Below, piece by piece: positions 41,303 through 56,293 of a DNA stretch of 64,000 nt (position 1 is the stretch's first letter; each line of letters opens with the position of its first letter). The notes beneath the pieces were generated by a model, which ran no database searches, had not been told where the DNA came from, and worked only from the letters and a program-made list of their open reading frames with translations. Source of the stretch: Geodermatophilus ruber. GTDB taxonomy: Bacteria; Actinomycetota; Actinomycetes; Mycobacteriales; Geodermatophilaceae. The stretch covers positions 1 to 64,000 of the forward strand of contig NZ_FOSW01000020.1 in the NCBI RefSeq assembly GCF_900114385.1, written 5' to 3'. Position numbers and translations under genes: made by a program.

Positions 41303-41374
41303 TCAGCGGCCCGGACAGAGCGCGCTCGCGACCCGCAACAGGTCGATGGCGGGACGACGGGTCAGGCACTCCAC
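41303..41374 (-). CDS. Leader peptide (23 residues, ends ASALCPGR)
   Basis: A GTG at 41374, with GAGGAGGAGC five bases upstream, opens a 23-codon frame whose C-terminus reads DLLRVASALCPGR. The (H/I)DLxRxxSALC pattern is that of small sulfur-gene leader peptides known in actinobacteria, where cysteine codons near the end sense cysteinyl-tRNA. The frame starts 9 nt after the FMN reductase stop, so it is internal to the operon and stands directly before cysteine dioxygenase. It also has a Cys at residue 3. Confidence 0.75.
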   Translation of the reverse strand: MECLTRRPAIDLLRVASALCPGR

Positions 41375-41383
41375 TGCTCCTCC

Positions 41384-41884
41384 TCAGCCCGCCCGCACGG
41401 CGCGGGCCGCGGCCACCTGGGGCCGGGCGGTGGCGAGCCACGCGTCCAGGGGCGCCGGCTCGTCCCAGTCCTTGTCGAGCAGGTAGAGGCCGCGGGTGGG
41501 GGCCGTCGCCCCGAGTTCGACGAGCACCGGCTTGAGCAGCAGCTCCGGGGCGAGGGCGTGCGCCGGGCCGCCACCCAGCATCAGCGGAACCGCGACGACG
41601 CCGGCGAGGTCGCCGGTGCCGATCTGGTCGAGGAACAGCTTGAGCAGGCCGGTGTAGGTCGCCTTGTAGGTGGGGCTGGCGACGACGGCGACATCGGCGG
41701 CCCGCACCGCGGCGACGGCGTCCTGGACTGCCGGGTCACCCCAGCCGAGCAGGCCGGCGCCGAGGTCGACGACGTCGATCACGCTGTCCGGCGGTGCCCC
41801 GGTCAGCCGCTCGGCGACCAGTTCTGCCGCCGCGCGGGTGCGGGAGCGGGGCTTGGGGTTGCCGACGACGGCGACGGTGCTCAC
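41384..41884 (-). CDS. NAD(P)H-dependent FMN reductase
   Basis: The 166-residue flavodoxin-fold protein starts VAVVGNPKPRSRTRAAAELV and has the motif VASPTYKATYTGLLKLFLDQI, which is typical of the SsuE/NADPH-dependent FMN reductase family. It supplies reduced FMN to partner monooxygenases. GTG 41884 overlaps the stop of the SsuD-like gene (GTGA), so the two form a coupled two-component monooxygenase system. Confidence 0.9.
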   Translation of the reverse strand: MSTVAVVGNPKPRSRTRAAAELVAERLTGAPPDSVIDVVDLGAGLLGWGDPAVQDAVAAVRAADVAVVASPTYKATYTGLLKLFLDQIGTGDLAGVVAVPLMLGGGPAHALAPELLLKPVLVELGATAPTRGLYLLDKDWDEPAPLDAWLATARPQVAAARAVRAG

Positions 41885-42993
41885 GCCGCCGCTCCCGCCG
41901 CGGCCGCGTCGCGCGTGGCGACCTCGTCGCGGACCAGCGGGATCACGTAACGGCCGACGTCGATGGCGTCGCCGAGGAGGTCGTAGCCGCGCATCGAGAT
42001 GATGTCCACGCCCAGGTCGACGTAGTCGAGCAGCGCCTGCGCCACCGTCTCCGGCGTGCCCACCAGGGCGTTGGAGTTGCCCGCCCCGCCGGTCGCCTTC
42101 GCCGTCGGCGTCCACAGCGCGCGGTCGAACCGCTGGCCGCGCTCGGCGATCTCCAGCAGTCGCTGCGAGCCGGTGTTCTCCGGCGAGCTCAGCGGGTGGC
42201 GGCGCGAGATCGGCTGCTGGCCGCCCGTGGTGTGGGCGTTGATCCGCTCGACCGTGCGCTGGGCCTTCTCCCAGGCCAGCTCCTCGGTGGGGGCGATGAT
42301 GGGCCGGAAGGCGACCTGGATGCGCGGCATCGTCGTCCGCCCGGCCGCGCGGGCGGCGGCGTGCACCCGCTCGATCTGCGCGGCGGTCTCGGCCAGCGGC
42401 TCGCCCCACAGCGCGAAGATGTCCGCCTCCGCGCCGCCGGCCGCGTAGGCGGCCTCGGACGACCCGCCGAAGGAGACGTCCGGGCGCGGCTGCTGGACCG
42501 GGAAGGTGTCGCTGACGAAGTCCGCGAAGCGGTAGAACTCGCCGTCCCAGTCGAACGGCTCGCGCGAGGTCCAGGCCTTCTTGACGATCTGGATGTACTC
42601 GCGGGTGCGCCGGTAGCGCTCGTCCTTGCCCAGGTAGTCACCCTCGCGCTGCTGCTCGGTGTCGGTACCGCCGGTGATGAAGTGGACGGTCAGCCGGCCC
42701 TCGCCGATCCGGTCGAGGGTGGCGAACGTCTTCGCGGCGAACGTCGGGTAGCTCACGTTGGGGCGGTGGGCGAGCAGCACCTGCAGCGCCTCGGTGCGGG
42801 AGAGCAGGAAGGCGGCCGCCGCGGAGGGTTCGGGGGAGCCGGAGCCGTAGGCGAACAGCACCCGGTCCCAGCCGAAGTCCTCGTGCGCGCGGCCGAGCCG
42901 CAGGGTGAAGTCCTTGTCGAAGCTGGGCCCCGAGCGCGGGTTGGTCTCGGATCCGTCGTTGGTGGCGGCGATGCCCAGGAACTCGATCGGCAT
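41881..42993 (-). CDS. SsuD-like FMNH2-dependent monooxygenase
   Basis: The 370-residue bacterial-luciferase-like enzyme aligns by pattern with alkanesulfonate monooxygenase: LLAHRPNVSYPTFAAKTFATLDRIGEG, HFITGGTDTEQQREGDYL, FGGSSEAAYAAGGAEADIFALWGEPL and the C-terminal ALVGTPETVAQALLDYVDLGVD. It likely removes sulfite from an organosulfonate or oxidises an organosulfur compound. Substrate is unassigned. It is the first gene of the operon led by the peptide at 43084-43191 and is coupled to its FMN reductase. Confidence 0.88.
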   Translation of the reverse strand: MPIEFLGIAATNDGSETNPRSGPSFDKDFTLRLGRAHEDFGWDRVLFAYGSGSPEPSAAAAFLLSRTEALQVLLAHRPNVSYPTFAAKTFATLDRIGEGRLTVHFITGGTDTEQQREGDYLGKDERYRRTREYIQIVKKAWTSREPFDWDGEFYRFADFVSDTFPVQQPRPDVSFGGSSEAAYAAGGAEADIFALWGEPLAETAAQIERVHAAARAAGRTTMPRIQVAFRPIIAPTEELAWEKAQRTVERINAHTTGGQQPISRRHPLSSPENTGSQRLLEIAERGQRFDRALWTPTAKATGGAGNSNALVGTPETVAQALLDYVDLGVDIISMRGYDLLGDAIDVGRYVIPLVRDEVATRDAAAAGAAA

Positions 42994-43083: not shown

Positions 43084-43191
43084 TCAGCGACAGAGCGCCG
43101 ACCACACCCGGCCGAGGTCGATGTGCACGCGCCGGATCAGCCGCGGAGCGGCTCCGGGAGCGGACGACCGGGCGGTCGGGGCGGCGGACAC
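43084..43191 (-). CDS. Leader peptide (about 35 residues, ends VWSALCR)
   Basis: The frame ends RRVHIDLGRVWSALCR-stop, the clearest match to actinobacterial sulfur leader peptides. GTG 43191 lies about 7-9 nt after an extended -10 box (TGGTAGACA), so translation may be leaderless; the exact start is uncertain because no ribosome site is seen. It stands 90 nt before the SsuD-like gene and is the first element of its transcript. Confidence 0.7.
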   Translation of the reverse strand: MSAAPTARSSAPGAAPRLIRRVHIDLGRVWSALCR

Positions 43192-43195
43192 GAGA

Positions 43196-43224
43196 CAATG
43201 TCTACCATTTCGATCGGAATTGAC
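43196..43224 (-). promoter_or_regulatory. Conserved sulfur promoter/operator element, copy 1
   Basis: Read on the minus strand the element is GTCAA-2-CCGATCG-3-TGGTAGA-1-ATTG. Copy 2 at 54134-54162 has the same spacing and 23 of 29 identical bases. TGGTAGA contains an extended -10 box facing the leader peptide, while the complementary TTGACG is the -35 box of the divergent SAM-riboswitch transcript. Confidence 0.75.
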
Positions 43225-43249
43225 GGGAATGCGGGCCGCGTGCCACGCT
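43220..43249 (+). promoter_or_regulatory. Promoter of the SAM-IV transcript (TTGACG - 18 - CACGCT)
   Basis: TTGACG (43220-43225) and CACGCT (43244-43249) are 18 bp apart. Transcription is expected to begin near 43256, exactly where riboswitch stem P1 starts. The equivalent promoter at copy 2 has the same geometry. Confidence 0.6.
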
Positions 43250-43256
43250 GCCGGCG

Positions 43257-43335
43257 GGTCAAGAGCGCCAGCGACAAGCCCCGGCTCGCTGGCCGGCAAC
43301 CCTTCCTCCGCGATGGGGTGCCCCGGGTGACGACC
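43257..43335 (+). ncRNA. SAM-IV-type riboswitch
   Basis: The segment has closing stem P1 GGTC/GACC, the stem GCCAGC...GCTGGC, the conserved core CCGGCAACCC, and the 3' segment GGGGTGCCCCGGGTGA followed by GACGACC. This is the layout of the actinobacterial SAM-IV riboswitch, which lowers expression of sulfur genes when S-adenosylmethionine is abundant. It is nearly identical to the copy at 54023-54100. The controlled gene begins at 43405; a GGACCC/GGGTCC hairpin at 43366-43384 may be part of the expression platform. Confidence 0.9.
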
Positions 43336-43404
43336 TGGCGGGGGCCGGCCGGTCCTCGCAAGCGCGGACCCGGTGCGCGGGTCCCCGACTCCTGTGGAGG
43401 TCCC

Positions 43405-44784
43405 ATGTCCGGCGCGGTCCTGTCCCGTTCCGACGTCCGCCCGGCCGTCCTCACGGCCGGGCCGCTGCTGCCCGTGGTGGGCGCGGACACCGAGGTGCCG
43501 CTGGTTCCCTCCGGCCGCGCCCGGTACGTCAACCTGGACACCGCGGCCAGCACGCCGGCGCTGGTCGCGGTGGCCGAGCGGGTGGCCGAGGCCCTCCCGC
43601 TCTACGCCAGCGTGCACCGCGGCGCCGGCTATCTGTCGCAGGTGTCGACGGCGCTCTACGAGTCGGCCCGGGACACGGTCGCCGGCTTCGTCGGCGCCCG
43701 GGCCGACGACGTCTGCGTGCTCACCCGCAACACCACCGACGCGCTCAACCTGCTCGCCGGCTGTGTTCCCCCCGGACGGCGGGTGCTGGTGCTCGACTGC
43801 GAGCACCACGCCGACCTGCTGCCCTGGCAGCGCCGCGGCGCCACCGTCCTGCCCACCCGGGCGACCGTGACCGCCACCCTGCGGGACCTGGGCGCGGAGC
43901 TGGCCCGGGACCGCTATGCCCTGGTCGCGGTCACCGGGGCGTCCAACGTGACCGGGGAGGCGCTGCCGCTGGCCGACGTCGTCGCGCTCGCGCACGCCGC
44001 CGGCGCGCGGGTCGCCGTCGACGGCGCCCAGCTCGTGCCGCACCGCCGGTTCTCCCTCGCCGCGACCGGCGCGGACTACGTGGCGCTCTCCGGGCACAAG
44101 CTCTACGCCCCCTACGGCGTCGGTGCGCTGGTCGGCCGCCGGGACTGGCTGGACGCGGCTCCGCCATACCTCGCCGGCGGCGGTGCGGTGCACGACGTGA
44201 CCGTCGAGGCGACGACCTGGGCCACGGCGCCACACCGGCACGAGGGCGGTTCCCCGAACGTCCTCGGCGCGGTCGCGCTGGCGGCCGCCTGCGCGGCCCT
44301 GTCCGGGCTGCCCGAGGGCGCGCTCGAGGCGCACGAGGCGCAGCTGCGGGCCCGGCTCGAGGAGGGGCTCGACGCGCTGCCCGGCGTGCGGCGGCTGCGG
44401 ATCTGGCCGGACTCCACTGCGCCCACCGGGGTCGTCGGGTTCACCGTCGAGGGGGCCGATCCCGGTCTGGTCGCGGCCTGCCTGTCGGCCGAGCACGGGA
44501 TCGGGGTGCGGGACGGCCGGTTCTGCGCCCATCCGCTGCTGGCCCGGCTCGGGGTGCCGCAGGGGGCGCTGCGGGCGAGCGTCGGCGTGGCGACGACGAG
44601 CGCCGATGTCGACCGGCTCCTCGACGGCCTGGCCGCGTTCCTCTGCAGCGGTCCGGCGGTGCCGTACGCGGTGCGGGACGGTCGCTGGCAGCCGGTCGAC
44701 GATCCCCGGCCGCTGGCCGGCCTCGGCGGTGCCGACCTCGACTCCGTGGCCCGGGGTGCCGGGTGTGGCGCGCCGGGGCGGTGA
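43405..44784 (+). CDS. Cysteine desulfurase-like PLP enzyme (aminotransferase class V)
   Basis: The 459-residue fold-type I PLP protein has the class V pattern NLDTAASTPALVAVAERV, VLTRNTTDALNLLAGCV, ASNVTGEALPLADV, the Asp/Gln pair VDGAQLVPH, the Schiff-base lysine in LSGHKLYAPYG, and the late cysteine in VRDGRFCAHPLL that matches the RxGxHC region of SufS-type enzymes. ATG 43405 has GTGGAGG upstream. It is the only gene directly after the SAM-IV riboswitch, so it should work in cysteine/methionine supply, for example sulfur release from cysteine or a related C-S lyase. The exact reaction is not proven. Confidence 0.85.
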   Translation: MSGAVLSRSDVRPAVLTAGPLLPVVGADTEVPLVPSGRARYVNLDTAASTPALVAVAERVAEALPLYASVHRGAGYLSQVSTALYESARDTVAGFVGARADDVCVLTRNTTDALNLLAGCVPPGRRVLVLDCEHHADLLPWQRRGATVLPTRATVTATLRDLGAELARDRYALVAVTGASNVTGEALPLADVVALAHAAGARVAVDGAQLVPHRRFSLAATGADYVALSGHKLYAPYGVGALVGRRDWLDAAPPYLAGGGAVHDVTVEATTWATAPHRHEGGSPNVLGAVALAAACAALSGLPEGALEAHEAQLRARLEEGLDALPGVRRLRIWPDSTAPTGVVGFTVEGADPGLVAACLSAEHGIGVRDGRFCAHPLLARLGVPQGALRASVGVATTSADVDRLLDGLAAFLCSGPAVPYAVRDGRWQPVDDPRPLAGLGGADLDSVARGAGCGAPGR

Positions 44785-44789
44785 CGGTG

Positions 44790-45020
44790 TCAGCCGGGCA
44801 GCAGCACGGTGCGCAGCTCGTGCGCGCCGTCGGCCCGGGTGGCCTCGTAGAACCAGCGGGCGCCGCCGCCGGGGAGGGGCACGGCATCGGCGTAGCGGAG
44901 CCCGGACGGCGGGTGCGGGCTCTGCAGCAGCGGGCCGCCCGCCGCGGCGACGAACCGGCCGCTCCCGTCGGCGACCGCCAGCCCGGTGCGCTCCTCCCAG
45001 TTCTCCGCCGCGGTGACTTC
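44790..45020 (-). pseudogene. Start-less C-terminal gene fragment
   Basis: An open frame of about 77 codons without ATG/GTG encodes NWEERTGLAVADGSGRF and later GLRYADAVPLPGGGARWFYE, ending at a TGA (44790-44792). The composition and YADAVxLPGGGxRxFYEATRxDGAHxLRT pattern look like a genuine protein end, reminiscent of hypothetical actinobacterial beta-propeller or sugar-hydrolase-like proteins. An in-frame stop lies at 45021-45023. It is probably the remains of a deleted gene. Confidence 0.45.
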
Positions 45021-45079
45021 TCATCCCGCTCCGCCGGTCCCGCACGGGGCCGGTGACCCTCACCCCGAAGGAGATCCCC

Positions 45080-45568
45080 GTGTCCGTGACCGACGAACTG
45101 CTCGCTGCCAACGCCCGCTACGCGGAGACCTTCCCCGGCCCGCTGCCGCTGCCGCCGGCGAGGCACGTCGCCGTGGTCGCCTGCATGGACGCCCGGCTCG
45201 ACGTGTACCGCGCCCTGGGCCTGTCCGAGGGGGAGGCGCACGTCATCCGCAACGCCGGCGGCGTCGTCACCGACGACGAGATCCGCTCCCTGGCGATCAG
45301 CCAGCGGCTGCTCGGCACCCGCGAGATCGTGCTGGTGCACCACACCGACTGCGGGATGCTCACCTTCCACGACGAGGACTTCCGGGCCTCGGTCGAGCAG
45401 GACGTCGGCGTCCGCCCGACCTGGCACTCCGAGGCGTTCGGCGACCTGGAGGAGGACGTCCGGGCGCAGCGGCGGCGCATCCTCGACAGCCCGTTCATCC
45501 CGGTGAAGGACAGCGTCCGCGGTTTCGTCCTCGACGTCGCGACCGGGAAGCTCAGCGAGGTGCTCTGA
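45080..45568 (+). CDS. Beta-class carbonic anhydrase
   Basis: The 162-residue enzyme has the beta-carbonic anhydrase zinc motifs VACMDARLDVY (Cys, Asp-Arg dyad), IRNAGGVVTDDEIRSL and VLVHHTDCGML (His-x-x-Cys). It interconverts carbon dioxide and bicarbonate. GTG 45080 has AAGGAGA six bases upstream; an in-frame ATG at 45053 would add nine residues across that site. It is a single gene flanked by a gene fragment and a terminator. Similar proteins are common beside sulfur genes in actinobacteria, but the link is unproven. Confidence 0.93.
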   Translation: MSVTDELLAANARYAETFPGPLPLPPARHVAVVACMDARLDVYRALGLSEGEAHVIRNAGGVVTDDEIRSLAISQRLLGTREIVLVHHTDCGMLTFHDEDFRASVEQDVGVRPTWHSEAFGDLEEDVRAQRRRILDSPFIPVKDSVRGFVLDVATGKLSEVL

Positions 45569-45576
45569 CTGCGAGG

Positions 45577-45613
45577 CCGGCCCGCGGGCCGGAGCCCCTC
45601 CCCGGGCGGGAGG
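45577..45613. terminator. Double hairpin between convergent genes
   Basis: A 16-nt palindrome CCGGCCCGCGGGCCGG (45577-45592) is followed by CCTCCC-5-GGGAGG (45597-45613). It separates the carbonic anhydrase gene from the convergent long sulfur operon. Confidence 0.55.
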
Positions 45614-45642
45614 AGGTTCCGGTCCGCGGGCGCAGCCGGCGG

Positions 45643-46794
45643 TCAGGTCCGGGCAGCGTGCGCGCCGAGGGCGAAGGCCTCCACGCCGGCCGGTGCGCCG
45701 AGCGCCAGGTCGGCGAGCACCCGGCCGATGGCAGGGGCGGACTTGAACCCGTGCCCGCTGAAGCCCGCGGCGACCACCACGGGGCCGATGCGGTCGAGCA
45801 CGAACTCGCCGGTGGGCGTGCTCGTGTAGGTGCACGACACCGGCTCGGGATCGTCGGCGTCGAGCCCGGGCAGCCAGCGGCGCACGTACTCCTGGAGGAG
45901 GGCCAGCTGCCCGGGCTCGGCGGTGAAGTCCCGGGCGTCGGGGTGGCACTCGGGGCCGGTGCCGTGGAACCCGACCTTCACGCCCTCACCCGGGCTGGAA
46001 AGCCCGTAGACGCCGCTCGGCCAGCCCTCGTCCGGGTCCGGGTCGGCGGTGAAGGCGGGCCACTCCAGCCCGGGGTCGAGCGGGCGGAAGTGCGCCGGTT
46101 GCTCCTGGGTGACCCGCAGTGGCGGCAACCGCACGTCGTCGCCGAGTACGTCGCGCGTCCATGCCCCGGCCGCCACGACCGCGGCACGGGCGCGGACCAC
46201 CGCTCCCGCGGCGGACCGCACGCACACCCCCTCTCCGTCCGGCTCGAGCGCGGTGACCCGCCGGTGGTGCCGCACGACGGCGTCGTGGGTCGCGGCGGCG
46301 GCCTGCAGGGCGGTGACCGCGGCGTCGGCGTCCACCCGACCGGCGGTGTGCGGCTCGTGGAGGACCGGGCCGGGGAAGCGCAGCCCCGGCCAGCGCTCCG
46401 CGGCCGCCGTCGGCGAGAGCCACTCGTACGGCACGCCGGCGGCGTCCATCGCCGCGGCCACCGCGCGCAGCCGGTCCTGCCCGGGACCGGGCGCGGCGGT
46501 GGCCACGCCAGGGCCCGGGTGCAGGAGCGTCGTCCCGGTCTCGGCCTCGAGCTGCGCCCACAGCTCCCGGGCCTCGGCGACCAGTGCCTGGTGGTGCGGC
46601 TGGGGGTAGGTGCTGCGGTAGATCCGGGACCGACCGTGCGAGGCGCCCAGGGCGTGGCCGGGGCCGAACTGCTCCAGCAGCACGACCCCGACCCCGCGCC
46701 GCGCCAGCGCCCAGGCGGCGGCCGAGCCCACGACGCCGCCACCGACCACGACGACGTCGGTGAGCCGCGGCGTGGCCGGCCCGGGCGCGCTCAG
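45643..46794 (-). CDS. Monomeric sarcosine oxidase/N-methyl amino acid oxidase-like flavoprotein
   Basis: The 383-residue protein has the FAD motif VVVGGGVVGSAAAWALARRG, the MSOX motif QFGPGHALGASHGRSRIYR, the covalent-flavin cysteine region SCTYTSTPTGEFVLD, and the C-terminal AAGFSGHGFKSAPAIGRVLADL. It oxidatively removes N-methyl or similar groups from amino acids. The only plausible start is CTG 46794, overlapping the upstream stop as CTGA in the same way as the ATGA overlaps elsewhere in this operon. As last gene of the sulfur operon it may process an N-substituted amino acid released during salvage. Confidence 0.85.
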   Translation of the reverse strand: MSAPGPATPRLTDVVVVGGGVVGSAAAWALARRGVGVVLLEQFGPGHALGASHGRSRIYRSTYPQPHHQALVAEARELWAQLEAETGTTLLHPGPGVATAAPGPGQDRLRAVAAAMDAAGVPYEWLSPTAAAERWPGLRFPGPVLHEPHTAGRVDADAAVTALQAAAATHDAVVRHHRRVTALEPDGEGVCVRSAAGAVVRARAAVVAAGAWTRDVLGDDVRLPPLRVTQEQPAHFRPLDPGLEWPAFTADPDPDEGWPSGVYGLSSPGEGVKVGFHGTGPECHPDARDFTAEPGQLALLQEYVRRWLPGLDADDPEPVSCTYTSTPTGEFVLDRIGPVVVAAGFSGHGFKSAPAIGRVLADLALGAPAGVEAFALGAHAART

Positions 46795-47798
46795 GACCCC
46801 ACCGCCGGGTTGACCACGGGCTCGTCGACGGCCTCGTCGGGCAGGCCCCACCGCTCCAGCGTCCGGGCGTAGGTGCCGTCCTCGAAGACGTGCTGCAGCG
46901 CCGCCTCGAAGGCGTCGACCAGGCCGTTGCCCTTCAGCGAGGTGGCCGCGACGTAGGTGGTGTTGGGCCAGCCGGCGTTGACCGTGCCGACGATCTCGAT
47001 GTCGCCGACCGACTGCTGGTACACGGCGTTCGGGTTCGGGCCGATGTAGGTGTCGATCCGGCCCGACTGCAGCGCCAGCAGGGTGTCGGCGGCGTTGGCG
47101 TAGTACTCCAGCTGCGCGGTCTCCAGGCCGGCGGCCTCGTTCTGGGCGTTCCAGTCGAGCAGGATCCGCTCCTGGTTGGTCCCGGAGCTGACGGCGATCG
47201 TGAGGCCGGCGATGTCCGCGGGCTCGTCGATCGACAGCCCGCTGTCGGGCCGGGCGCTGAAGGCCATGACGCCCTCGCGGTAGGTGGCGAAGTCGAACAG
47301 CTGCAGCCGCTCGCTGTTGACGCCGACGTTGCTGAACACCGCCTCGAGGTCTCCGCTCTGCACGCCCAGCGGCCACTGCTCCCACGAGACGTTGACGACG
47401 TCGAGCTGCAGGCCGAGGGACTCGGCGACCAGCGAGGCGATGTCGACCTCGCTGCCGACGACGGTGGCGTTGTCGTCGGCGAGGAAGCCCAGGGGCGGCT
47501 CGCCGGCGCCGGCCACGCCGACGGTGAGCCGCCCGTCCTCGGCGATGGCGGCCGGCACGAGGGTGGCGGCGTCGGGGTCCTCGTCGGTGTGGACCCGGCC
47601 GGTCTGCTCGGGGCTGGTGTCCACCCCGAGCACCGCCTCGGTGGCGCCGGCCTCGGCGGCCCCCTCGGCGCGCTGATCGGCCTCGATCTCCGCCGAGCTG
47701 GTGCAGGCGGACAGGAACACCACGGTGGACAGGACGAGCGCGGTGCGCAGGGGCAGCGCGGCGGTCGGCCGGACGGCGCGCGTGCGGGTGCGGGTCAT
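46791..47798 (-). CDS. Amino-acid ABC transporter substrate-binding lipoprotein (second)
   Basis: The 335-residue protein has a lipoprotein signal (VLSTVVFLSAC) and a type-II periplasmic binding fold for polar amino acids: LTVGVAGAGEPPLGFLADDN, VGSEVDIASLVAESLGL and the hinge AGLTIAVSSGTNQERIL. It is a diverged paralogue of the next gene upstream. GAGGAGAC precedes ATG 47798. Paired binding proteins with one importer recall TcyJ/TcyK of the B. subtilis cystine system. Confidence 0.9.
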   Translation of the reverse strand: MTRTRTRAVRPTAALPLRTALVLSTVVFLSACTSSAEIEADQRAEGAAEAGATEAVLGVDTSPEQTGRVHTDEDPDAATLVPAAIAEDGRLTVGVAGAGEPPLGFLADDNATVVGSEVDIASLVAESLGLQLDVVNVSWEQWPLGVQSGDLEAVFSNVGVNSERLQLFDFATYREGVMAFSARPDSGLSIDEPADIAGLTIAVSSGTNQERILLDWNAQNEAAGLETAQLEYYANAADTLLALQSGRIDTYIGPNPNAVYQQSVGDIEIVGTVNAGWPNTTYVAATSLKGNGLVDAFEAALQHVFEDGTYARTLERWGLPDEAVDEPVVNPAVGS

Positions 47799-47823
47799 CG
47801 GGGTCTCCTCTCGCGATCCGGGC

Positions 47824-48813
47824 TCAGGCGGGCTGGCGCGGCAAGCCGGGCGGGTTGGTCTCGGCGCGCTCGATCGCCTCGCTGGTCAGCCCCCACCGCT
47901 CGAGGACCTGTGCGTAGGTGCCGTCGTCGATGGCGTGGTTGAGCGCGGCGGTGATCGCCTCGGCCAGGCCGTTGCCCTTCGCGGTGGCGACGGCGATCTG
48001 CGCGGTCTGCGGCCATCCGCCGTTCACCGTGCCGACGACCTCGAAGTCCTGCGGCGCCACGCCCGCCTTGTACGCGCCCGTCGGGTTCGGGCCGAAGTAC
48101 AGGTCGAGGCGGCCGGACTGCAGCGCGAGGATGGAATCGCCGTCGTTCTCGAAGTACTGGACGTCGATGGGCTCCAGGCCGGCTGCCTGGTTCTCCGCGT
48201 CCCAGGCCAGCAGGATCTTCTCCTGGTTGGTGCCCGAGCCCACGGCGATCGTCAGCCCGGCGATGTCCTCGGCCTTCTCCACCGACAGGCCGGAGTTCGC
48301 GTTCGCCAGGAAGCCTAGGTTGTCGACCCGGTAGGAGGAGAAGTCGAACAGCTCCTTGCGCTCCTCGGTCACGGTCACGTTGGCGATCGTCACGTCCACC
48401 GAGCCGGACTGGGTGGCCAGCGGCCAGTTCGACCAGTCGGTGGTGATCAGCTCCAGGTCGAGACCGAGGCCGTCGGCGACGAGCTGGGCGATGTCCGGCT
48501 CGTTGCCGATCACCGTCTCGTTGTCGTCGGCCAGGAAGCTCAGCGGCGGGGTGAACGCCCCGACCGCCACGGTCAGCTTCCCGTCCGCGACGAGTCCGGG
48601 CGGCAGGAGCGCGATGGCCTCGTCGCTGGGCGTGCTGCGGACCCGGTCCTGGTCGGGGCTGGTGTTGACGGCCAGGCCCGAGCTGCCGGAGCCGGCGTCG
48701 TCGGCGCGGGCCTGCTCCTCGATCTCGTTCGCGCTGGTGCACGCCCCGAGGGCCAGCACGGACGCAGCGGCCAGAACGGCGACGAGTCGGGCTCGTCCGG
48801 TACGTGCGCTCAC
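47824..48813 (-). CDS. Amino-acid ABC transporter substrate-binding lipoprotein (first)
   Basis: The 329-residue protein has a lipoprotein signal (ASVLALGAC) and the binding-protein pattern LTVAVGAFTPPLSFLADDN, IGNEPDIAQLVADGLGL and AGLTIAVGSGTNQEKILLAWDAEN. It is about as long as its downstream paralogue and shares its N-terminal spacer (NTSPDQDRVR). GTG 48813 has AAGGAGAG upstream and is preferred over an extension to 48855. It probably captures cystine or an S-substituted cysteine. Confidence 0.9.
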   Translation of the reverse strand: MSARTGRARLVAVLAAASVLALGACTSANEIEEQARADDAGSGSSGLAVNTSPDQDRVRSTPSDEAIALLPPGLVADGKLTVAVGAFTPPLSFLADDNETVIGNEPDIAQLVADGLGLDLELITTDWSNWPLATQSGSVDVTIANVTVTEERKELFDFSSYRVDNLGFLANANSGLSVEKAEDIAGLTIAVGSGTNQEKILLAWDAENQAAGLEPIDVQYFENDGDSILALQSGRLDLYFGPNPTGAYKAGVAPQDFEVVGTVNGGWPQTAQIAVATAKGNGLAEAITAALNHAIDDGTYAQVLERWGLTSEAIERAETNPPGLPRQPA

Positions 48814-48886
48814 TGTGGTTTCTCTCCTTGGAGGGGGCACGCGGGCGCGTGCCATCGACGGGCGGCGCGGGGTGCGCCGTGAAGGA

Positions 48887-48935
48887 CCCCGTCCTCCTCA
48901 CCGCTCGCACGCTCGCGGCGAGCCTCTGGACGGGG
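48887..48935 (-). repeat. Nested inverted repeat inside the transporter operon
   Basis: CCCCGTCC (48887-48894) pairs with GGACGGGG (48928-48935), enclosing GCTCGC (48903-48908) and GCGAGC (48918-48923). It lies in the 130-nt gap between the ATPase stop and the first binding-protein gene. A second small hairpin, GGCACGCG-GG-CGCGTGCC, is nearby. It may stabilise or separate the transcript so that binding proteins are made at a different level. Confidence 0.5.
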
Positions 48936-48943
48936 CCGGGTGA

Positions 48944-49741
48944 CTACAGGACCTTCGCGAGGAAGGCGCGGGTGCGTTCGTGCGTCGGGTGGTCGAGCAC
49001 CTGCTCGGGCGGGCCGGCCTCGACGACCCGGCCGGCGTCCATGAACACGACCCGGTCGGCCGCCCGGCGGGCGAACCCGATCTCGTGGGTGACCACGACC
49101 ATCGTGGTGCCGTCGCGGGCGAGGTCCTCGATGACGCCGAGCACCTCGCCGACCAGCTCGGGGTCCAGCGCCGAGGTGGGCTCGTCGAACAGCAGCACGG
49201 CCGGCCGCATCGCCAGAGCGCGGGCGATGGCCACCCGCTGCTGCTGCCCACCGGAGAGCTGCCGGGGGTAGGCGCCGGCCCGGTCGGCCAGGCCCACGCG
49301 GCCGAGCAGCTCGCGGGCCTCGGCCTCGACCTCACTGCGCCGGCGGCCCTGCGCCGAGACCGGCGCCTCGACGACGTTCTCCAGCGCAGTGAGGTGCGGG
49401 AACAGGTTGAAGGACTGGAAGACGAACCCGAAGCGGGTGCGCTGGCGCAGCAGGTCCTTCTCCGGCAGCTCGTGCAGCCGCTCGGTGCCGCGGTGCGGCT
49501 TGCGGTGGTAGCCCACCAGCTCCCCGTCCAGGGCCACGAAGCCCCGGTCGACCTTCTCCAGGTGGTTGATGCTGCGCAGCAGCGTGGACTTGCCCGAACC
49601 CGACGGCCCGAGGACGACGGTGACGGTCCCCGGCTCGACGACCAGGTCGACGCCGCGCAGCACCTCCAGCGTGCCGAAGGCCTTGTGCACGCCGTGCACC
49701 TCGACCCGGCCGGGGCGGGTCCCCTCGACCGCCGCGGTCAT
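48944..49741 (-). CDS. Polar amino-acid ABC transporter ATPase (cystine type)
   Basis: The 265-residue ATPase has Walker [11 protein letters not shown]-loop [11 protein letters not shown], signature [17 protein letters not shown] and Walker [16 protein letters not shown], the HisP/GlnQ/TcyN family pattern. ATG 49741 overlaps the permease stop (ATGA). It energises uptake through the adjacent permease. Confidence 0.95.
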
Positions 49742-50706
49742 CGGGTGGCCCCGCGCGGAGCGCCGAACCGTGACAGGACGGCGGCGAGCTCCGACCGCAC
49801 CCGCTGCCACGGTGTCGGTGGCAACGTCCGGACCGCACCCCGGGCGTAGTACCGCTCGACGTAGTACTGGATCACGGTGACCACCGTGGTGAGGACGACG
49901 TACCAGACCGCCGCGACGACGAGCATCGGCAGCACCCGCTGGGTGCGGCCGTAGATGACGCTGACCGTGTAGAACAGCTCGCCGAGGGCCAGCACGTAGA
50001 CGATCGAGGTGCCCTTGAACAGGCCGATCACCTCGTTGACCGCCGTCGGCACGATCGCGCGCATCGCCTGCGGCAGAACGATCCGGGTGGTCTGCCGGCG
50101 CCGCGGGATGCCCAGTGAGGCGGCGGCCTCCAGCTGGCCCTGGTCCACCGAGAGGATCCCGGCACGGACGATCTCCGCGGAGTAGGCCGCCTGGTGCAGG
50201 CCCAGGCCGAGGATGGCGGCGCCGAACTTGTCGATCAGCGAGAGCGTCTCGACGCTGGCGAACGACGGGCCGAACGGGATGCCGAAGTCCAGCGTCTGGT
50301 ACAGGTAGGCGAGGTTGTACCAGAGCAGCAGCTGCAGGATCAGCGGCACCGAGCGGAACACCCAGGTGTAGCCCCAGCTGACCGCCCGCAGCAGCGGCGA
50401 GCGGGACAGCCGCATGAGCGCCAGCACCGTGCCCAGGGCGAAACCGAGCACGGCGGTGATCAGCGTCAGCTGGATGGTCGTCCAGACCCCGCGGACGATC
50501 GACTCCTCGGTCAGGTACGCGCCGACGACGTCCCACTCCCACCGGGGGTTGGTGACCAGCGAGTTGACCACCATCGCGAGCAGGACCGCGACGGCGGCGG
50601 TGGCCACCCAGCGGCCCGGGTGCCGCGCGGGCACCACCTTCAACTGGTCGTAGGGCGTCCCGGATCGCGGCGCGAGGGTGTCGGGACGGGAGGCGAGCGA
50701 CGTCAT
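49738..50706 (-). CDS. Polar amino-acid ABC transporter permease
   Basis: The 322-residue HisM-family permease has an N-terminal cytoplasmic extension and first helix, then [40 protein letters not shown], and the EAA loop [24 protein letters not shown]. Only one permease gene is present, so it should act as a homodimer. It is coupled by ATGA overlaps both to the acetyltransferase upstream and the ATPase downstream. Confidence 0.94.
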
Positions 50707-51236
50707 GCGAGGTCTCCCAGGGGCTTCTCGAAGGCGTACAGACGCTGGGCCACCGGCAGCCGGCGGAGGGCGGCGCTGTCGGTGGGACGGGGGACGGCGG
50801 GGTCGAACAGCGGGGTCCAGCCGGCGGCGAGGTAGAGCGACTTGGCCTCGGGCTGGCGGGGACCGGTGGTGAGGTACATGCGGGTGTAGCCGCGGGCCGT
50901 GGCCCGGGCCTCCAGCTCGGCGAGTACCTGGCGGGCCAGCCCGCGCCGGCGGTGGGCGGTGGCGGTCCACATCCGCTTGACCTCGGCGGTGCCCGGGTCG
51001 TCGTGCCGGCGGTAGGCGCCGCCGGCCACCGGGACGCCGTCCTCCACCAGCAGGAGCAGTTCGCCGTCCGGGGGCAGGAACTCCGCGGCCGGGTAGCGGG
51101 TGAGCTCCTCGGCCGCGCCGCCGAACAGGTCGCCGTAGCGGCTGTCGTACTCGGCGGTGAGCTCGGCGAACAGCGGTGCGGCCAGCGCGTCGTGCGGGTG
51201 GGCGCGCACCACCGCCAGGCCGGGCGCGGCGGTCAT
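50703..51236 (-). CDS. GNAT-family N-acetyltransferase
   Basis: The 177-residue protein has the acetyl-CoA motif [23 protein letters not shown] preceded by EVKRMWTA, and the later [11 protein letters not shown]. The length and operon position match YtmI (SnaB-type) of B. subtilis, which acetylates S-substituted cysteines before oxygenation. The equivalence is inference. It overlaps both neighbours by 4 bp. Confidence 0.88.
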
Positions 51237-52612
51237 CGGGCCACCTGCCCGCGGTCGGTGCCGACGCCGCCGCCGGAGCGGCGGGAGCTGCGGGCCGGGC
51301 CGAGGCCGAGGTGGTCGCGCAGCGTCGGGCCGGTGTAGTCGGTACGGAAGGAGCCGCGGTCCTGCAGCAGCGGGACGACGCGGGCGGCGAACTCGTCCAG
51401 CCCGGCCGGGGTGAGGTGGGGCACGAGGATGTAGCCGTCGCACGCGTCGGCCTGCGCCGCGTCGTCGATCTGCTGCGCCACCGACTCCGCCGTCCCGACG
51501 AGGCCGCCGCGGTCGCCGACCTGGATGACCAGTTCGCGGATCGACCAGCCGTGGGCCTCGGCCAGCTCCCGCCACTGCCGGGCCAGCGCCGCCGGGTCGC
51601 GGTGGTGCCGGACCCGGCCGCGGGTGATCGACACGTTGTCCGCGTCGGGGTCGTCGGCCGGCAGCGGGCCGTCCGGGTCGTACGCGGTGAGGTCGCGGCC
51701 CCACACCTGCTCCAGGAAGGCGATCGCCGTCGGCCCGCTGACCTGCTGCTCGCGGATGTGCCGCGCCCGGTCGCGGGCCTCGGCCTCGGTGTCACCGAGC
51801 ACCACGGTGACCGCGGGCAGGATCTTCAGGTCCTCCCGCCGGCGGCCGTGCGCGGCCAGCCGGCCCTTGACGTCGGCGTAGAACGCCTGGCCGGCCTCGA
51901 CGGTCGAGTGCGCGGTGAACACGACGTCGGCGTCCCGGGCGGCGAACTCCCGTCCCTCGGTCGAGTCACCGGCCTGGAACAGCACCGGGTGCCCCTGCGG
52001 CCCGCGCGGGGTCCCGAAGGTGCCCCGGACGTCGAACTGCGGGCCGGTGTGGGCGAACGGCCGCACGGCGCCCGGGCGCAGGAAGGTCTCCCCGCCGGCG
52101 ACCGCGTCGATGTCCCAGGAGTCCCACAGCTGCCGGGCGACCTGCACCAGCTCCGCGGCCCGGGAGTACCGCTCGGCGTGGGGCAGGAAGCCGCCGCGGC
52201 GGAAGTTCGCCCCGTGGAACGGGTCGGAGCTGGTGACCAGGTTCCACGCGGCCCGCCCGCCGGAGAGCAGATCGAGGGTGCCCCACTGCCGGGCCACCTC
52301 GTACGGCTCGTTGAACGTCGTGTTGATGGTGCCGACCAGGCCCAGCCGCTCGGTGACGGCGGCCAGCGCGGCCAGCACCGGCAGGGTGTCGGGCCGGCCG
52401 ACGACGTCGAGGTCGTAGACCTGCTCCTTGTGCTCGCGCAGCCGCAGCCCCTCGGCGAGGAAGAAGAAGTCGAACCGCGCGTCCTCCGCGGTGCGGGCCA
52501 GGTGCTCGAAGGAGGCGAACTCGACCTGGCTGCCCGAGCGGGGGTCGGCCCAGACGGTGGTGTTGTTGACGCCGGGGAAGTGGGCGCCCAGGTGGATCTG
52601 CTTGCGGCTCAT
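51233..52612 (-). CDS. NtaA/SnaA/DszA-family flavin monooxygenase (YtnJ/CmoJ-like)
   Basis: The 459-residue luciferase-like enzyme has the family motifs FDFFFLAEGL, GTINTTFNEPYEVARQWGTLDLLSGGRAAWNLVTS, FLPHAERYSRAAELVQVARQLWDSWD, the insert KGRLAAHGR and the C-terminal YTGPTLRDHLGL. Members use FMNH2 to oxidise amines or thioethers, and YtnJ/CmoJ of B. subtilis cleaves N-acetyl-S-alkylcysteines. Reduced flavin would come from a separate reductase; the only intact one nearby is at 41384. It is coupled to both neighbours (ATGA). Confidence 0.9.
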   Translation of the reverse strand: MSRKQIHLGAHFPGVNNTTVWADPRSGSQVEFASFEHLARTAEDARFDFFFLAEGLRLREHKEQVYDLDVVGRPDTLPVLAALAAVTERLGLVGTINTTFNEPYEVARQWGTLDLLSGGRAAWNLVTSSDPFHGANFRRGGFLPHAERYSRAAELVQVARQLWDSWDIDAVAGGETFLRPGAVRPFAHTGPQFDVRGTFGTPRGPQGHPVLFQAGDSTEGREFAARDADVVFTAHSTVEAGQAFYADVKGRLAAHGRRREDLKILPAVTVVLGDTEAEARDRARHIREQQVSGPTAIAFLEQVWGRDLTAYDPDGPLPADDPDADNVSITRGRVRHHRDPAALARQWRELAEAHGWSIRELVIQVGDRGGLVGTAESVAQQIDDAAQADACDGYILVPHLTPAGLDEFAARVVPLLQDRGSFRTDYTGPTLRDHLGLGPARSSRRSGGGVGTDRGQVAR

Positions 52613-53745
52613 CGGGTGGCTCCGGCGGCGTGACGGTCGGCGGTGTAGCGGCTGGCGGGGCGGGGCAGGCCGAGGGTGTCGCGCAGCGTCGGTCCGGGTG
52701 GGCCGGCCGGTCGCACGCCCCGTGCGCGCAGCAGCGGGACGACCTCGTCGACGAGCACCTCGAGGTCGGTGGGCAGCACGGCAGGCCGCACGACCACGCC
52801 GTCGACCACCGTCGTCCACACCGCGATCAGGTCGGCCAGCCCGGCGGCCTCGCCGACGTGCTCCACCGTGTCGAACGCGGTGGGTGTCCACCGGTCCAGC
52901 CGTGCGCGCCGATCCGCGGCGTCGGGACCGAGCCAGGCGACGACCTCGACCAGGACGGCGACCTGCCGCGGGTCCCGGCCGGCCTGCTCGACCAGGCCGC
53001 GCAGGGCGGTGCGGTGCGCCACGGCCGTGGCGGCGTCCCGGGCCGGTACCCGGACCACGTCGGCCCGCCGGGCGGCGACCCGCAACGCCGCCTCGGAGTC
53101 GGCGCGGACCACCACCGGCGGCCGTCCCTGGGGGGATCGCGGCGTGATGGAGGCCCCCTTCACGGAGAAGCGGGGGCTCTCGAAGTCGACGTAGTGGACC
53201 TTGTTGCGGTCGACGAACCGGCCGGTGGCGACGTCCCGGATCTCGGCGTCGTCCTCCCAGCTGTCCTCCAGCCGGGCCACGACCTCGGCGACGTCGTCGG
53301 CCTCGGCCCACAGGTCCTCGTCGGGCTCGGCGTCCTTGCGGCCGAACAGCGCCGCCTCCGCGGGGGTACGGCTGACCGCGATCTCCCAGCCGGCGCGGCC
53401 GCGGCTGACCCAGTCGAGGGTCTGCACCGCCTTGCCGACGTGGAAGGGCTCGGTGTGCGTCGTCGTCACGCTCGGGACCAGGCCGATGCCCGCGGTCAGC
53501 GGGGCGACGCGGGAGGCGGTCAGCAGCGCGTCGAGCCGGCCGCGGACGCCGCCCTCGGTGCCCTGGATGCCGAAGGCGTCGGGGAACAGGGCGAGGTCGA
53601 GGTCACCGCGCTCGGCGGTGCGGACCAGCTCGACCCAGCGCGCGGGGTCGAACAGCCGGGTGGGCTCGGCAGCGGCCAGTCGCCAGGCGGCCGGGTGGGC
53701 CCCGGCGTCGGACAGCTCGACGCCGAGGAGGGGAGTGCGGGACAT
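52609..53745 (-). CDS. Luciferase-like flavin monooxygenase (YtmO-like)
   Basis: The 378-residue LLM-class protein contains RGDLDLALFPDAFGIQ, TTTHTEPFHVGKAVQTLDWVSRGRAGWEIAVS and a C-terminal LRARGVRPAGPPGPTLRDTLGL resembling that of the next gene, so the two are distant paralogues. It is the first protein gene of the long sulfur operon, after a SAM-IV riboswitch and a leader peptide. ATG 53745 has TGGGAG upstream; a longer frame to 53799 runs into the leader region. Substrate is unknown. Confidence 0.87.
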   Translation of the reverse strand: MSRTPLLGVELSDAGAHPAAWRLAAAEPTRLFDPARWVELVRTAERGDLDLALFPDAFGIQGTEGGVRGRLDALLTASRVAPLTAGIGLVPSVTTTHTEPFHVGKAVQTLDWVSRGRAGWEIAVSRTPAEAALFGRKDAEPDEDLWAEADDVAEVVARLEDSWEDDAEIRDVATGRFVDRNKVHYVDFESPRFSVKGASITPRSPQGRPPVVVRADSEAALRVAARRADVVRVPARDAATAVAHRTALRGLVEQAGRDPRQVAVLVEVVAWLGPDAADRRARLDRWTPTAFDTVEHVGEAAGLADLIAVWTTVVDGVVVRPAVLPTDLEVLVDEVVPLLRARGVRPAGPPGPTLRDTLGLPRPASRYTADRHAAGATR

Positions 53746-53855
53746 GGGGGTGCTCCCAGGGACGGAACGAGTGGGGGGTCGCGGGCACGCCGCCGGCACC
53801 GCGCGCAGGCGGTGGGCGAGAGCGGCCGGTGCCGCGGGAGGTCAGGGGCGAGCGG

Positions 53856-53957
53856 TCAGCGACAGAGCGCGCTGTCGGTGCGCAGCAGGTCGACGGTCAG
53901 GCGTCCGACCAGGTGGAACGAGAGGTGTCGCCCGCTTCGGGGGCTCCCCGTGCTCAC
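53856..53957 (-). CDS. Leader peptide (33 residues, ends TDSALCR)
   Basis: GTG 53957 has GAGGAG eight bases upstream and opens a frame ending RLTVDLLRTDSALCR-stop. It lies between the SAM-IV riboswitch and the first monooxygenase gene, 110 nt before the latter. CGGCACCG and CGGTGCCG in that gap can form an attenuator-like hairpin. The leader's ribosome site partly lies in a possible GGCTC/GAGCC stem (53964-53981). Confidence 0.78.
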   Translation of the reverse strand: MSTGSPRSGRHLSFHLVGRLTVDLLRTDSALCR

Positions 53958-54022
53958 TGTCTCGGCTCCTCGTGCTGAGCCCCGGAGGGCTGCGGACTTG
54001 CGGACGCGGATGGCGTCCGCCA

Positions 54023-54100
54023 GGTCGTCACCCGGGGCACCCCGTCGCAGCGGAGGGTTGCCGGCCAGCGAGCCGGGGCTTGGTACTGGCACTCAGGACC
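54023..54100 (-). ncRNA. SAM-IV-type riboswitch
   Basis: On the minus strand it starts with GGTC (54100-54097), has the stem around GCCAG...CTGGC, the core CCGGCAACCC and GGGGTGCCCCGGGTGA, and closes with GACC (54026-54023). It is nearly identical to the plus-strand copy at 43257-43335. A further hairpin GCGGACG/CGTCCGC (54000-54020) follows. It heads the nine-element operon of leader peptide, monooxygenases, acetyltransferase, importer and oxidase. Confidence 0.9.
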
Positions 54101-54108
54101 TGGCCGGG

Positions 54109-54138
54109 ACCATAGACACCGAGCGCTAATCACGTCAA
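54109..54138 (-). promoter_or_regulatory. Promoter of the SAM-IV operon (TTGACG - 18 - TATGGT)
   Basis: On the minus strand TTGACG (54138-54133) and TATGGT (54114-54109) are 18 bp apart, and the predicted start coincides with the first base of riboswitch P1. Confidence 0.65.
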
Positions 54139-54162
54139 ACCCGATCGGTTTGGTAGAGATTG
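54134..54162 (+). promoter_or_regulatory. Conserved sulfur promoter/operator element, copy 2
   Basis: GTCAA-2-CCGATCG-3-TGGTAGA-1-ATTG, the same element as at 43196-43224. It faces the leader peptide at 54214 with its extended -10 (TGGTAGAGA) and overlaps the -35 box of the divergent SAM-IV operon. The centre CCGATCGG is a perfect palindrome here. Confidence 0.75.
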
Positions 54163-54213
54163 ACGTGTCGTCCGGCCCCCGGCCGGCGGACCCCGTGCGG
54201 AGGAGGAGGCGAC

Positions 54214-54291
54214 GTGGCGCACCCGGACCTGTCCCGGCGACGGCACGTCGACCTGCTGCGCACCTGCAGTGCCCTCTGTCGGACGGCCTGA
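54214..54291 (+). CDS. Leader peptide (25 residues, ends TCSALCRTA)
   Basis: GTG 54214 has GGAGGAGGAGG five to eight bases upstream. The frame ends RRRHVDLLRTCSALCRTA-stop, with two cysteine codons close together (TGC AGT GCC CTC TGT), the best sensor candidate in the window. The FAD-dependent gene starts 43 nt later. Confidence 0.8.
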   Translation: MAHPDLSRRRHVDLLRTCSALCRTA

Positions 54292-54334
54292 GCACGCCGT
54301 CCCTCGATCCGCTCCGGCACTGGAGAGCACCCGC

Positions 54335-56293
54335 ATGTCCACCCCTGCCCCGGACCCCGTCCGCCCGTCCACCGTCGTCGTCGTCGGCGCCGGCCCCACC
54401 GCCATCGGCGTCCTCGAACGGCTCGTCGCCAATGCCCCGGGGCTCTCCGGCGGACGACGGGTCCGCGTCCACCTCGTCGACCCCTTCCCGCCCGGCGGGG
54501 GGCGGGTCTGGCGGGCCGAGCAACCCGACCTCCTGTGGGCCAACTCCCTGGTCGGTGACGTCACCGTGCTGCCCGACGCCTCCGTCGTCGTCGACGGCCC
54601 GGTGGGAGAGGGGACGACCCTGTGGGAGTGGGTGCGCGCCGTCGCCGCCGCCCGTCCCGCCGAGGACCCCGTCGGCCGCGAGGCCCTGCGGCTCGGCCCG
54701 GCGTCCTTTCCGTCCCGCCCGCTCGTGAACGCCTACCTGAGCTGGGTGCTGGAGCGGGTGGCGGCCGACGCCGAGCCGTGGCTCGACGTCCACCTGCACG
54801 CCACCCGCGCGGTCGACGTCGCCGACGGCGCTGACGGCACCTGCGTGCGGTTGGCCGACGGGACGGTCCTCACCGCTGACGTCGTCCTGCTCGCCCAGGG
54901 GCACCTGGACGCCCGGCCGTCGGCGCCCGAGCAGGCGACGGCGGCGGCTGCCGCCCGACGGGGGCTGACCTACGTGCCGACCGGCTACACCGCCGACCTG
55001 GACCTCTCCGTCCTCCCGCCGGGGGAGGACGTGCTCGTGCGCGGGGCCGGGCTCGCCTTCGTCGACCTGGCGGTGCTGCTGACCAGCGGCCGCGGCGGCC
55101 GGTTCGCCCGCGGGGACGACGGCGGACTCCGGTACCTGCCCTCGGGCCGGGAGCCGGTGCTGCACGTCGGGTCGCGCCGCGGGGTCCCGTACCGGTCGAA
55201 GCTGGGCTATCCGTGGGCGGTGCCCCCGGTGCCGCTGCGGTTCTTCACGCCGGCTGCGGTCGATGAGGCGTTCGGCACCGATCGGCCGCTGGACCTGCGC
55301 GCCGACCTGGCCCCCCTGATCGCCCGGGAGCTCGGGTGGGCGCACTACACCGAGCTGTTCCGCGCCCACCCGGAGCGGACGTCGCTGCCCTGGGAGGAGT
55401 TCGCCGAGGCCTGGGCCGCGGCGGCCGGCCCCCGCGCCGAGCGGGCGCTCGTGGCGCGGGCGGTGCCCGACCTCGTGGACCGCTTCGACCTGGCCGCGCT
55501 GGACCGGCCGCTGGCGGGCCGCTGGTTCGCCGACCCCGGCACCCTGCAGGAGGCGGTGCGCCGGCACGTGCGCGCGGACCTCGACCGGGCCGGGAACCCG
55601 GCCTTCAGCACCGACGCCGCGGTCTTCACCGCCCTGCTGCAGTGCCACGGCACCATCGCGAGCCTGGTGGCGGCGCGGCGCCTGACCCCGCGGTCGGAGG
55701 CCGAGGACCTCTCCGGGTGGTGGATGAACCTGTTCAGCTACCTGGCCAGCGGCCCGCCCGGACCCCGCCTCGAGGAACTGCTGGCCCTCTCCGAGGCCGG
55801 GGTGCTGCGCTTCCTCGGCGCCGACACCGAGATCGCGCTGGACGAGGAGGCCGGGGTCTTCCGGGCGCGGTCGGCCAGCTGCCCGGGCATCACCGAGGCG
55901 CGGGCGCTGGTGGACGCGCGGCTGCCGCTGCCCGACGTCACGGCGACGACGGACCCGGTGGTCGCCGGCCTGCTGGCACGGGGAGAGGCCCGGGAGCGGG
56001 TCCTCTCCGACCCAGGAGCCGCGTGCGGCGGGTGGCGCACCGGCCGGCTCGACGTCGATGCCTCGCTGCGGCTGGTGACGGCGAGCGGTGCGGCGCATCC
56101 ACGGGTGTTCGCGGCCGGGTACTGGACCGCGGGAGCACAGGTCCCGGCGTTCGCCCGCCCGCGGACCGACGCCCCGTTCTTCCGGCAGAACGACGCGCTC
56201 GCCCGCGAGTTGTGGAGGGGGCTGGATGCCGCCCGCGGGACGCCGGACCGCGCCGGGGACGTCCTCCTCGCGGCCGCCGCGGGGGCCGCCTGA
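54335..56293 (+). CDS. FAD/NAD(P)-binding protein (NAD_binding_9 type)
   Basis: The 652-residue protein begins with the dinucleotide-binding motif VVVVGAGPTAIGVLERL and continues VHLVDPFPPGGGRVWRAEQP, followed by a long helical part and a C-terminal region with HPRVFAAGYWTAGAQVPAFARPRTDAPFFRQND. This fits the FAD-NAD(P)-binding family PF13454, often found with sulfur or siderophore genes; no reaction is established. TGGAGAG precedes ATG 54335. It is the target of the double-cysteine leader peptide and was once coupled to a flavin reductase that is now broken. Confidence 0.82.
   Translation: MSTPAPDPVRPSTVVVVGAGPTAIGVLERLVANAPGLSGGRRVRVHLVDPFPPGGGRVWRAEQPDLLWANSLVGDVTVLPDASVVVDGPVGEGTTLWEWVRAVAAARPAEDPVGREALRLGPASFPSRPLVNAYLSWVLERVAADAEPWLDVHLHATRAVDVADGADGTCVRLADGTVLTADVVLLAQGHLDARPSAPEQATAAAAARRGLTYVPTGYTADLDLSVLPPGEDVLVRGAGLAFVDLAVLLTSGRGGRFARGDDGGLRYLPSGREPVLHVGSRRGVPYRSKLGYPWAVPPVPLRFFTPAAVDEAFGTDRPLDLRADLAPLIARELGWAHYTELFRAHPERTSLPWEEFAEAWAAAAGPRAERALVARAVPDLVDRFDLAALDRPLAGRWFADPGTLQEAVRRHVRADLDRAGNPAFSTDAAVFTALLQCHGTIASLVAARRLTPRSEAEDLSGWWMNLFSYLASGPPGPRLEELLALSEAGVLRFLGADTEIALDEEAGVFRARSASCPGITEARALVDARLPLPDVTATTDPVVAGLLARGEARERVLSDPGAACGGWRTGRLDVDASLRLVTASGAAHPRVFAAGYWTAGAQVPAFARPRTDAPFFRQNDALARELWRGLDAARGTPDRAGDVLLAAAAGAA

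Follow-up and report, generated by a model that had tools for sequence, protein, structure and literature searches.

The window analysed here, 64,000 nucleotides of Geodermatophilus ruber (positions 1 to 64,000 of contig NZ_FOSW01000020.1), raises the question of what is done by a 29-bp DNA element that occurs in it twice, each time with an S-adenosylmethionine (SAM) sensing SAM-IV riboswitch pointing away on one side and, on the other, a leader open reading frame (ORF) with SALCR near its end. We lean towards the view that the element marks a sulfur regulon of the Geodermatophilaceae with an undescribed operator and regulator, whose outward promoters may each feed a SAM-IV riboswitch, a cysteine (Cys) leader with a rare UGU sensor codon, both, or neither.

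The pattern GTCAA-2-CCGATCG-3-TGGTAGA-1-ATTG matched the window only at these two places with up to three mismatches (shuffle mean 0.00, 100 shuffles). A preliminary description of this DNA had claimed two copies with identical spacing and 23 of 29 matching bases; pattern search returned the same coordinates and strands, and by eye 23 bases agree and 6 differ. It had further described a SALCR leader in one direction and, in the other, TTGACG, an 18-bp spacer and a SAM-IV riboswitch. This also held at both sites, with the boxes read by eye and the riboswitches matched to RF00634. The features at the two sites are as follows.

43196-43224, minus strand: element copy 1 (putative operator, -35 of the SAM-IV promoter and extended -10 of the leader promoter), by pattern search, kept in relatives
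54134-54162, plus strand: element copy 2, by pattern search, kept in relatives
43207-43220, no strand: putative operator dyad ATTTCGATCGGAAT, of the form AWNYCGATCGRNWT, from column counts (59 sites on the SAM-IV side, 29 on the TauE side)
54138-54151, no strand: putative operator dyad AAACCGATCGGGTT, of the same form, from column counts and dyad search
43220-43225, plus strand: predicted -35 box TTGACG of SAM-IV promoter 1, by eye and column counts
43244-43249, plus strand: predicted -10 box CACGCT of SAM-IV promoter 1, 18-bp spacer, by eye, also in relatives
54133-54138, minus strand: predicted -35 box TTGACG of SAM-IV promoter 2, by eye and column counts
54109-54114, minus strand: predicted -10 box TATGGT of SAM-IV promoter 2, 18-bp spacer, by eye
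43199-43204, minus strand: -10 box TAGACA (extended TGG) of the leader A promoter, 7 nt ahead of the GTG of leader A
54154-54159, plus strand: -10 box TAGAGA (extended TGG) of the leader B promoter, 54 nt to the GTG of leader B
43257-43370, plus strand: SAM-IV riboswitch 1 (RF00634), covariance model 110.2 bits
53989-54100, minus strand: SAM-IV riboswitch 2 (RF00634), covariance model 90.3 bits
43084-43191, minus strand: leader A, VSAAPTARSSAPGAAPRLIRRVHIDLGRVWSALCR, NF042934 22.8 bits, below the cut-off of 27
54214-54291, plus strand: leader B, VAHPDLSRRRHVDLLRTCSALCRTA, NF042934 25.5 bits, below the cut-off of 27

Both riboswitches lie over the RF00634 gathering score of 38 bits and cover the model at full length (positions 1-116). 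In the whole genome YCAnnnCGATCGGnWTTGAC occurred exactly only at the two window sites, with 8 more places at two mismatches; the core occurs once more before a TauE/SafE gene (G000:C11:39906; here and below G, C and L numbers are our handles for genomes, contigs and loci). The third SAM-IV of the genome, by eye before a metY-like gene, did not carry the element.

Separable parts of the 29-bp element

The preliminary description had regarded the 29 bp as a single element driving both sides. The divergent architecture is real and conserved, but the 29 bp do not form a single unit: their parts occur in other combinations elsewhere. Column counts over the 59 SAM-IV-side sites (including L118, probably a chance match in coding sequence, which was retained) and the 29 TauE-side sites gave ACCA-n-n-Y-CGATCG-R-n-W-T as the common part, with AWNYCGATCGRNWT in both classes. 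Each base of TTGAC is kept in 54-58 of the 59 SAM-IV-side sites and lost in the TauE class; each base of ATGTCTACCA, which is the -10 box read in reverse, persists in 28 or 29 of the 29 TauE-side sites, and many SAM-IV sites have CACCA or CATCA there. From these counts the element reads as three parts run together: a putative operator, ACC-AWNYCGATCGRNWT, the -35 box belonging to the SAM-IV promoter, and the extended -10 box (TGGTAGACAT) that belongs to the leader promoter.

The -10 half is missing from many SAM-IV promoters that nevertheless retain the operator. With up to two mismatches CGATCGGnnTTGAC was found within 70 bp upstream of 25 of 48 SAM-IV copies (47 of the 72 element-free places plus one element-bearing place), where 0.155 were expected from shuffles; upstream of the metY-type copies it was found in 0 of 8. 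We also observed two SAM-IV riboswitches diverging from one operator at L160 and L178 (G094, G097).

Sites of the TauE/SafE type keep the operator and the -10 box without SAM-IV, before a Cys leader with a probably leaderless start. Of 112 family genomes, 79 had the combination of operator half and -10 box, ATCGnnnTGGTAGACATnG, at up to one mismatch (none had the reversed pattern), some of the one-mismatch places, of the TGGTCGACAT type, looking like chance. The loci of this type that we inspected mostly showed a leader such as VAATAVLLVGRIHVDLLRVCTATCPGC followed by a TauE/SafE-like permease, and the corresponding gene of the window's genome belongs to PF01925. In all 28 TauE-type rows of the leader-start table, which has rows only where a leader was found, a GTG or ATG lies 6-8 nt behind TAGACA, and three have an extra RTG at 1-2 nt. 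This is the spacing of a leaderless start, and the best evidence for the -10 box. With its GTG 7 nt behind the -10 box, the mRNA of leader A is probably leaderless too. The 5' region is longer for leader B and for others in the SAM-IV-linked class (18 of the 27 rows so labelled, by a crude label that is wrong for L036 and L139).

Recurrence in relatives and origin of the two copies

The preliminary description had proposed to look for the element in relatives, and there it recurs with its spacing beside SAM-IV and Cys-type leaders. At up to three mismatches it was found in 34 of 112 Geodermatophilaceae genomes at 40 places (reversed-pattern control 0). A divergent SAM-IV has its 5' end 31-34 bp away at 31 of the 40, and none was found at the other 9 among the 103 of at least 150 family SAM-IV places used in this comparison; the 47 places left out were low scoring, none of them on the contigs of the 9. 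A leader was recognized by our pattern on the opposite side at 21 of 28 distinct SAM-IV-flanked sites (up to five mismatches, 4 repeats dropped). Three of the seven sites without one (L012, L015, L037) are followed directly by a gene that blastp to a window ORF labels flavin mononucleotide (FMN) reductase. Such a conserved divergent layout, linked as it is with SAM-IV and with leaders of the Cys type, speaks for a single sulfur regulator.

Across the order the core was present at up to one mismatch in 91 of 397 genomes, the control matching in 3. All 19 exact places listed belong to the Geodermatophilaceae; matches beyond this family have a single mismatch, in many cases TGGTCGACAT or TGGTGGACAT, and at the two we inspected (L211, L212) no leader was found by our pattern. 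A wider contig scan returned 46 stretches, 12 of them in Geodermatophilus, Blastococcus or Modestobacter, and the other 34 including 5 from Bradyrhizobium. A TauE search matched 12 of 46 genomes from other families at 15 loci, with a leader within 330 bp by our pattern at one of the 15.

A common regulator and a common origin of the two copies had both been thought likely. The former is argued for by the conservation above; the latter is possible only as an old duplication, the window copies being putative old paralogues. That they arose by recent duplication without functional meaning is very improbable: the 23 shared bases and the similar layout would fit it, but the flanking genes differ, and each copy resembles its counterpart from a congeneric species (G022) more closely than it resembles the other copy. 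Over 90-base stretches the SAM-IV parts of the window copies are 87.6% identical to each other, and 97.8% and 94.4% identical to those counterparts. In a midpoint-rooted tree of 54 operator-linked SAM-IV sequences the window copies appear to fall into two groups shared with other genera.

Cysteine leaders and the tandem with SAM-IV

Two more leaders in the window, like the TauE/SafE core copy, are additional to the preliminary description.

53856-53957, minus strand: leader C, VSTGSPRSGRHLSFHLVGRLTVDLLRTDSALCR, behind SAM-IV 2 (tandem), NF042934 20.1 bits, below the cut-off of 27
41303-41374, minus strand: leader D, VECLTRRPAIDLLRVASALCPGR, between an FMN-reductase-like ORF and the cysteine dioxygenase (CDO) gene, NF042934 30.8 bits, over the cut-off

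Leaders A and B end in SALCR or SALCRTA, and C is also of the SALCR type. All are short ORFs that carry a Cys close to the end and precede sulfur genes, as NF042934 leaders do. At leader D the 29-bp element was not found at up to three mismatches. As a correction to the preliminary description, the second SAM-IV leads first to leader C and not straight to genes, so that riboswitch and leader form one 5' region (53856-54100, minus strand). By its sequence this region places a predicted SAM sensor and a predicted Cys-type leader in series, an arrangement conserved in relatives. Among the distinct SAM-IV copies in the fetched loci, a selected set, 38 of 49 bear the operator, and in 18 of these 38 a leader, mostly ending in ...VDLLRTDSALCR, ends 217-270 nt after the SAM-IV start. 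The last codons of 23 tandem-type leaders agree to at least 75% in every DNA column.

The conserved last Cys of these leaders is mostly encoded by the rare TGT, a position-specific preference. The count is restricted to leaders whose HVDLxRxxSALC core has Cys as residue 12, and related sequences among them are not independent. This Cys was TGT in 57 of 63 distinct family leaders; the remaining Cys codons in the same stretches were TGC throughout (49/49). In other families of the order position 12 was TGT in 23 of 27 leaders (from 28 loci) and other Cys codons were TGC in 25 of 29. Mechanically called ORFs of at least 150 aa in the fetched loci had TGT at 94 of 1054 Cys codons. Leaders A, B, C and D all have TGT at the conserved last Cys. 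Looser definitions of the sensor Cys, superseded by the fixed-position count, gave TGT in 54/65 (family set) and 15/28 (other families). A position-specific UGU offers a testable idea for cysteine sensing by single-Cys leaders.

Such leaders share the H-[VI]-D-L-x-R...SALC core with NF042934 (cis_reg_atten), with the Ms4527A family NF042936 and, as far as the excerpted text of PMC4633059 goes, with the Cys-rich upstream ORFs reported from mycobacteria. Further likenesses to these known leaders are the RTG that in many sites follows the -10 box at short distance, and the position ahead of sulfur genes. As differences, three of the window leaders fall below the curated NF042934 cut-off, and those described here are tied to one operator and to SAM-IV.

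Proposed regulation and gene neighbourhood

Sequence comparison establishes the element, its geometry and conservation, and its association with SAM-IV, with leaders and with sulfur genes; protein binding, the sign of regulation, the transcription starts of both promoter types and the ligand responses we infer, repression being the simplest reading. The element is probably a transcription-factor operator of a sulfur-starvation regulon between two divergent promoters, with a repressor as the likeliest protein. The dyad AWNYCGATCGRNWT abuts and overlaps the -35 box predicted for the SAM-IV promoter and stands immediately before the extended -10 box that serves the leader promoter, so that one bound dimer could cover both. 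The repressor would be bound when sulfur is plentiful, and its release would let both transcripts start. As a second check SAM would then shut the SAM-IV message and ample Cys-tRNA the leader message, and the message at 53.8-54.1 kb would carry both sensors in tandem. If outward promoters do feed these sensors in varying combination, then starvation, SAM and Cys-tRNA charging would be read in series, and this would be a natural case in which transcription-factor site, riboswitch and peptide attenuator appear interchangeably combined on one operator.

Several observations weigh against this reading. The dyad is imperfect outside CGATCG, and many of its exact matches (e.g. ACCAGGTCGATCGAGTTCG, in several genomes) resemble coding sequence. 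By the CGATCGGnnTTGAC search the operator was not found in 23 of the 48 SAM-IV copies, 15 of these 23 not being of the metY type. A loose search for the core with three mismatches returned dozens of places per genome, well above the reversed control; this many-fold genome-wide excess indicates that the reversed control is mild and the three-mismatch core search too loose to use. No regulator-like ORF adjoins the sites in the 20 larger loci of one set and the 12 of another, as judged from the first 60-70 residues; about 2 kb away from the L259 site there is a TetR-like ORF. On the side of the leaders, A, B and C score under the NF042934 cut-off of 27 bits, leader-region folds were no better than shuffles (z -0.91, -1.35, +1.29), and consensus folds showed little covariation, with compensatory pairs in 1/14, 2/15, 5/30 and 0/13. 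With folds at shuffle level and little covariation, the attenuation step has no structural support and no convincing hairpin switch was seen.

A serious rival, which we hold to be possible but rather doubtful, keeps the same operator and makes the protein an activator of the SAM-IV side in a class II position, with an activator or a MerR-like spacer binder on the leader side. This would suit the place of the dyad, whose centre falls by eye at -42/-43 relative to the SAM-IV start, some 43 bp ahead of the riboswitch, although the SAM-IV-side -35 box is already near consensus. The leader side has no good -35 box and an atypical last -10 base (TAGACA), but the extended TGG can stand in for a -35. 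TTGACG stands 19 bp before TAGACA, a MerR-like spacer, at two TauE-type sites (L139 3907-3925 and L206), and the other TauE-type sites listed with L206 lack it at this distance. It is unlikely that there is no regulator at all and that the common bases are overlapping core-promoter signals, -35 one way and extended -10 the other, kept by geometry. Both promoter boxes do lie inside the 29 bp, yet CGATCG is outside both and stays strongly conserved where SAM-IV sites lack the -10 half and where TauE sites lack the -35. The 29-bp DNA offers a defined bait with which a sulfur regulator could be sought in this family of soil actinobacteria, known to be stress-hardy.

Each part belongs to a known kind, but neither the control site nor its joining with both sensors seems to have been described, and a literature search (title and abstract, open-licence PMC) found no description of the operator or of this combination among the matches listed. 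The ubiG operon of Clostridium acetobutylicum is controlled by an S-box and a Cys T-box, with an antisense RNA; it likewise has two sulfur sensors on one operon, whereas here a single 5' region holds SAM-IV together with a translated leader. The McbR motif is TAGAC-N6-GTCTA, of which by eye one half only (GTCTA/TAGAC) was seen here, inside the -10 part, and it differs from AWNYCGATCGRNWT. In the excerpted text of PMC2580772, McbR sites of Corynebacterium glutamicum often lie between -35 and -10, and CysR has the motif TGAAtnnAAt, that of SsuR being similar. By eye against the column counts we did not see this inverted repeat, as given in that excerpt (PMC2580772). The McbR/CysR/SsuR regulon is, by the same excerpt, like ours in being a sulfur regulon of an actinobacterium (PMC2580772). 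Both SAM-IV RNAs resemble RF00634 in being full-length and high scoring, and differ in the conserved operator in the promoter and, for one copy, the leader ORF that follows. A SAM-IV before a cysteine desulfurase gene is reported for Streptomyces lividans in the excerpt of PMC8079986.

The genes around the two sites are the following.

40622-41218, minus strand: CDO type I family (PF05995)
41881-42993, minus strand: luciferase-like (LLM) flavin monooxygenase, alkanesulfonate/dimethylsulfone monooxygenase-like, behind leader A, below equivalog cut-offs
43405-44784, plus strand: SufS-like cysteine desulfurase or class V aminotransferase, behind SAM-IV 1, by profile matches
45053-45568, plus strand: carbonic-anhydrase family protein (PF00484)
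46791-50760, minus strand: amino-acid (cystine-like) ATP-binding cassette (ABC) transporter with permease, ATPase and two binding proteins, best matches, below equivalog cut-offs
51233-52546, minus strand: NtaA/DmoA family monooxygenase, over cut-off
52609-53799, minus strand: NtaA/DmoA-like LLM monooxygenase, first gene behind SAM-IV 2 and leader C, below cut-off, start codon possibly internal
54335-56293, plus strand: flavin adenine dinucleotide (FAD)/nicotinamide adenine dinucleotide (phosphate) (NAD(P))-binding protein, behind leader B (PF13454)

Genes beyond the window were named from their translations by eye or by blastp to window proteins. Operator copies stand before cysD/cysN-like genes (L258), before CDO-like genes (L259, L262) and, together with a leader, before an SsuD-like monooxygenase (L261, with a like leader type in L260), which makes one sulfur regulon likely. 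Together with the LLM monooxygenases, cystine-like ABC transporter, cysteine desulfurase and CDO of the window and with the TauE gene, these targets suit a role in sulfur supply. In L265 an SsuD-like gene has a leader on the opposite side, and in L142 a chromate-transporter-like gene follows a leader.

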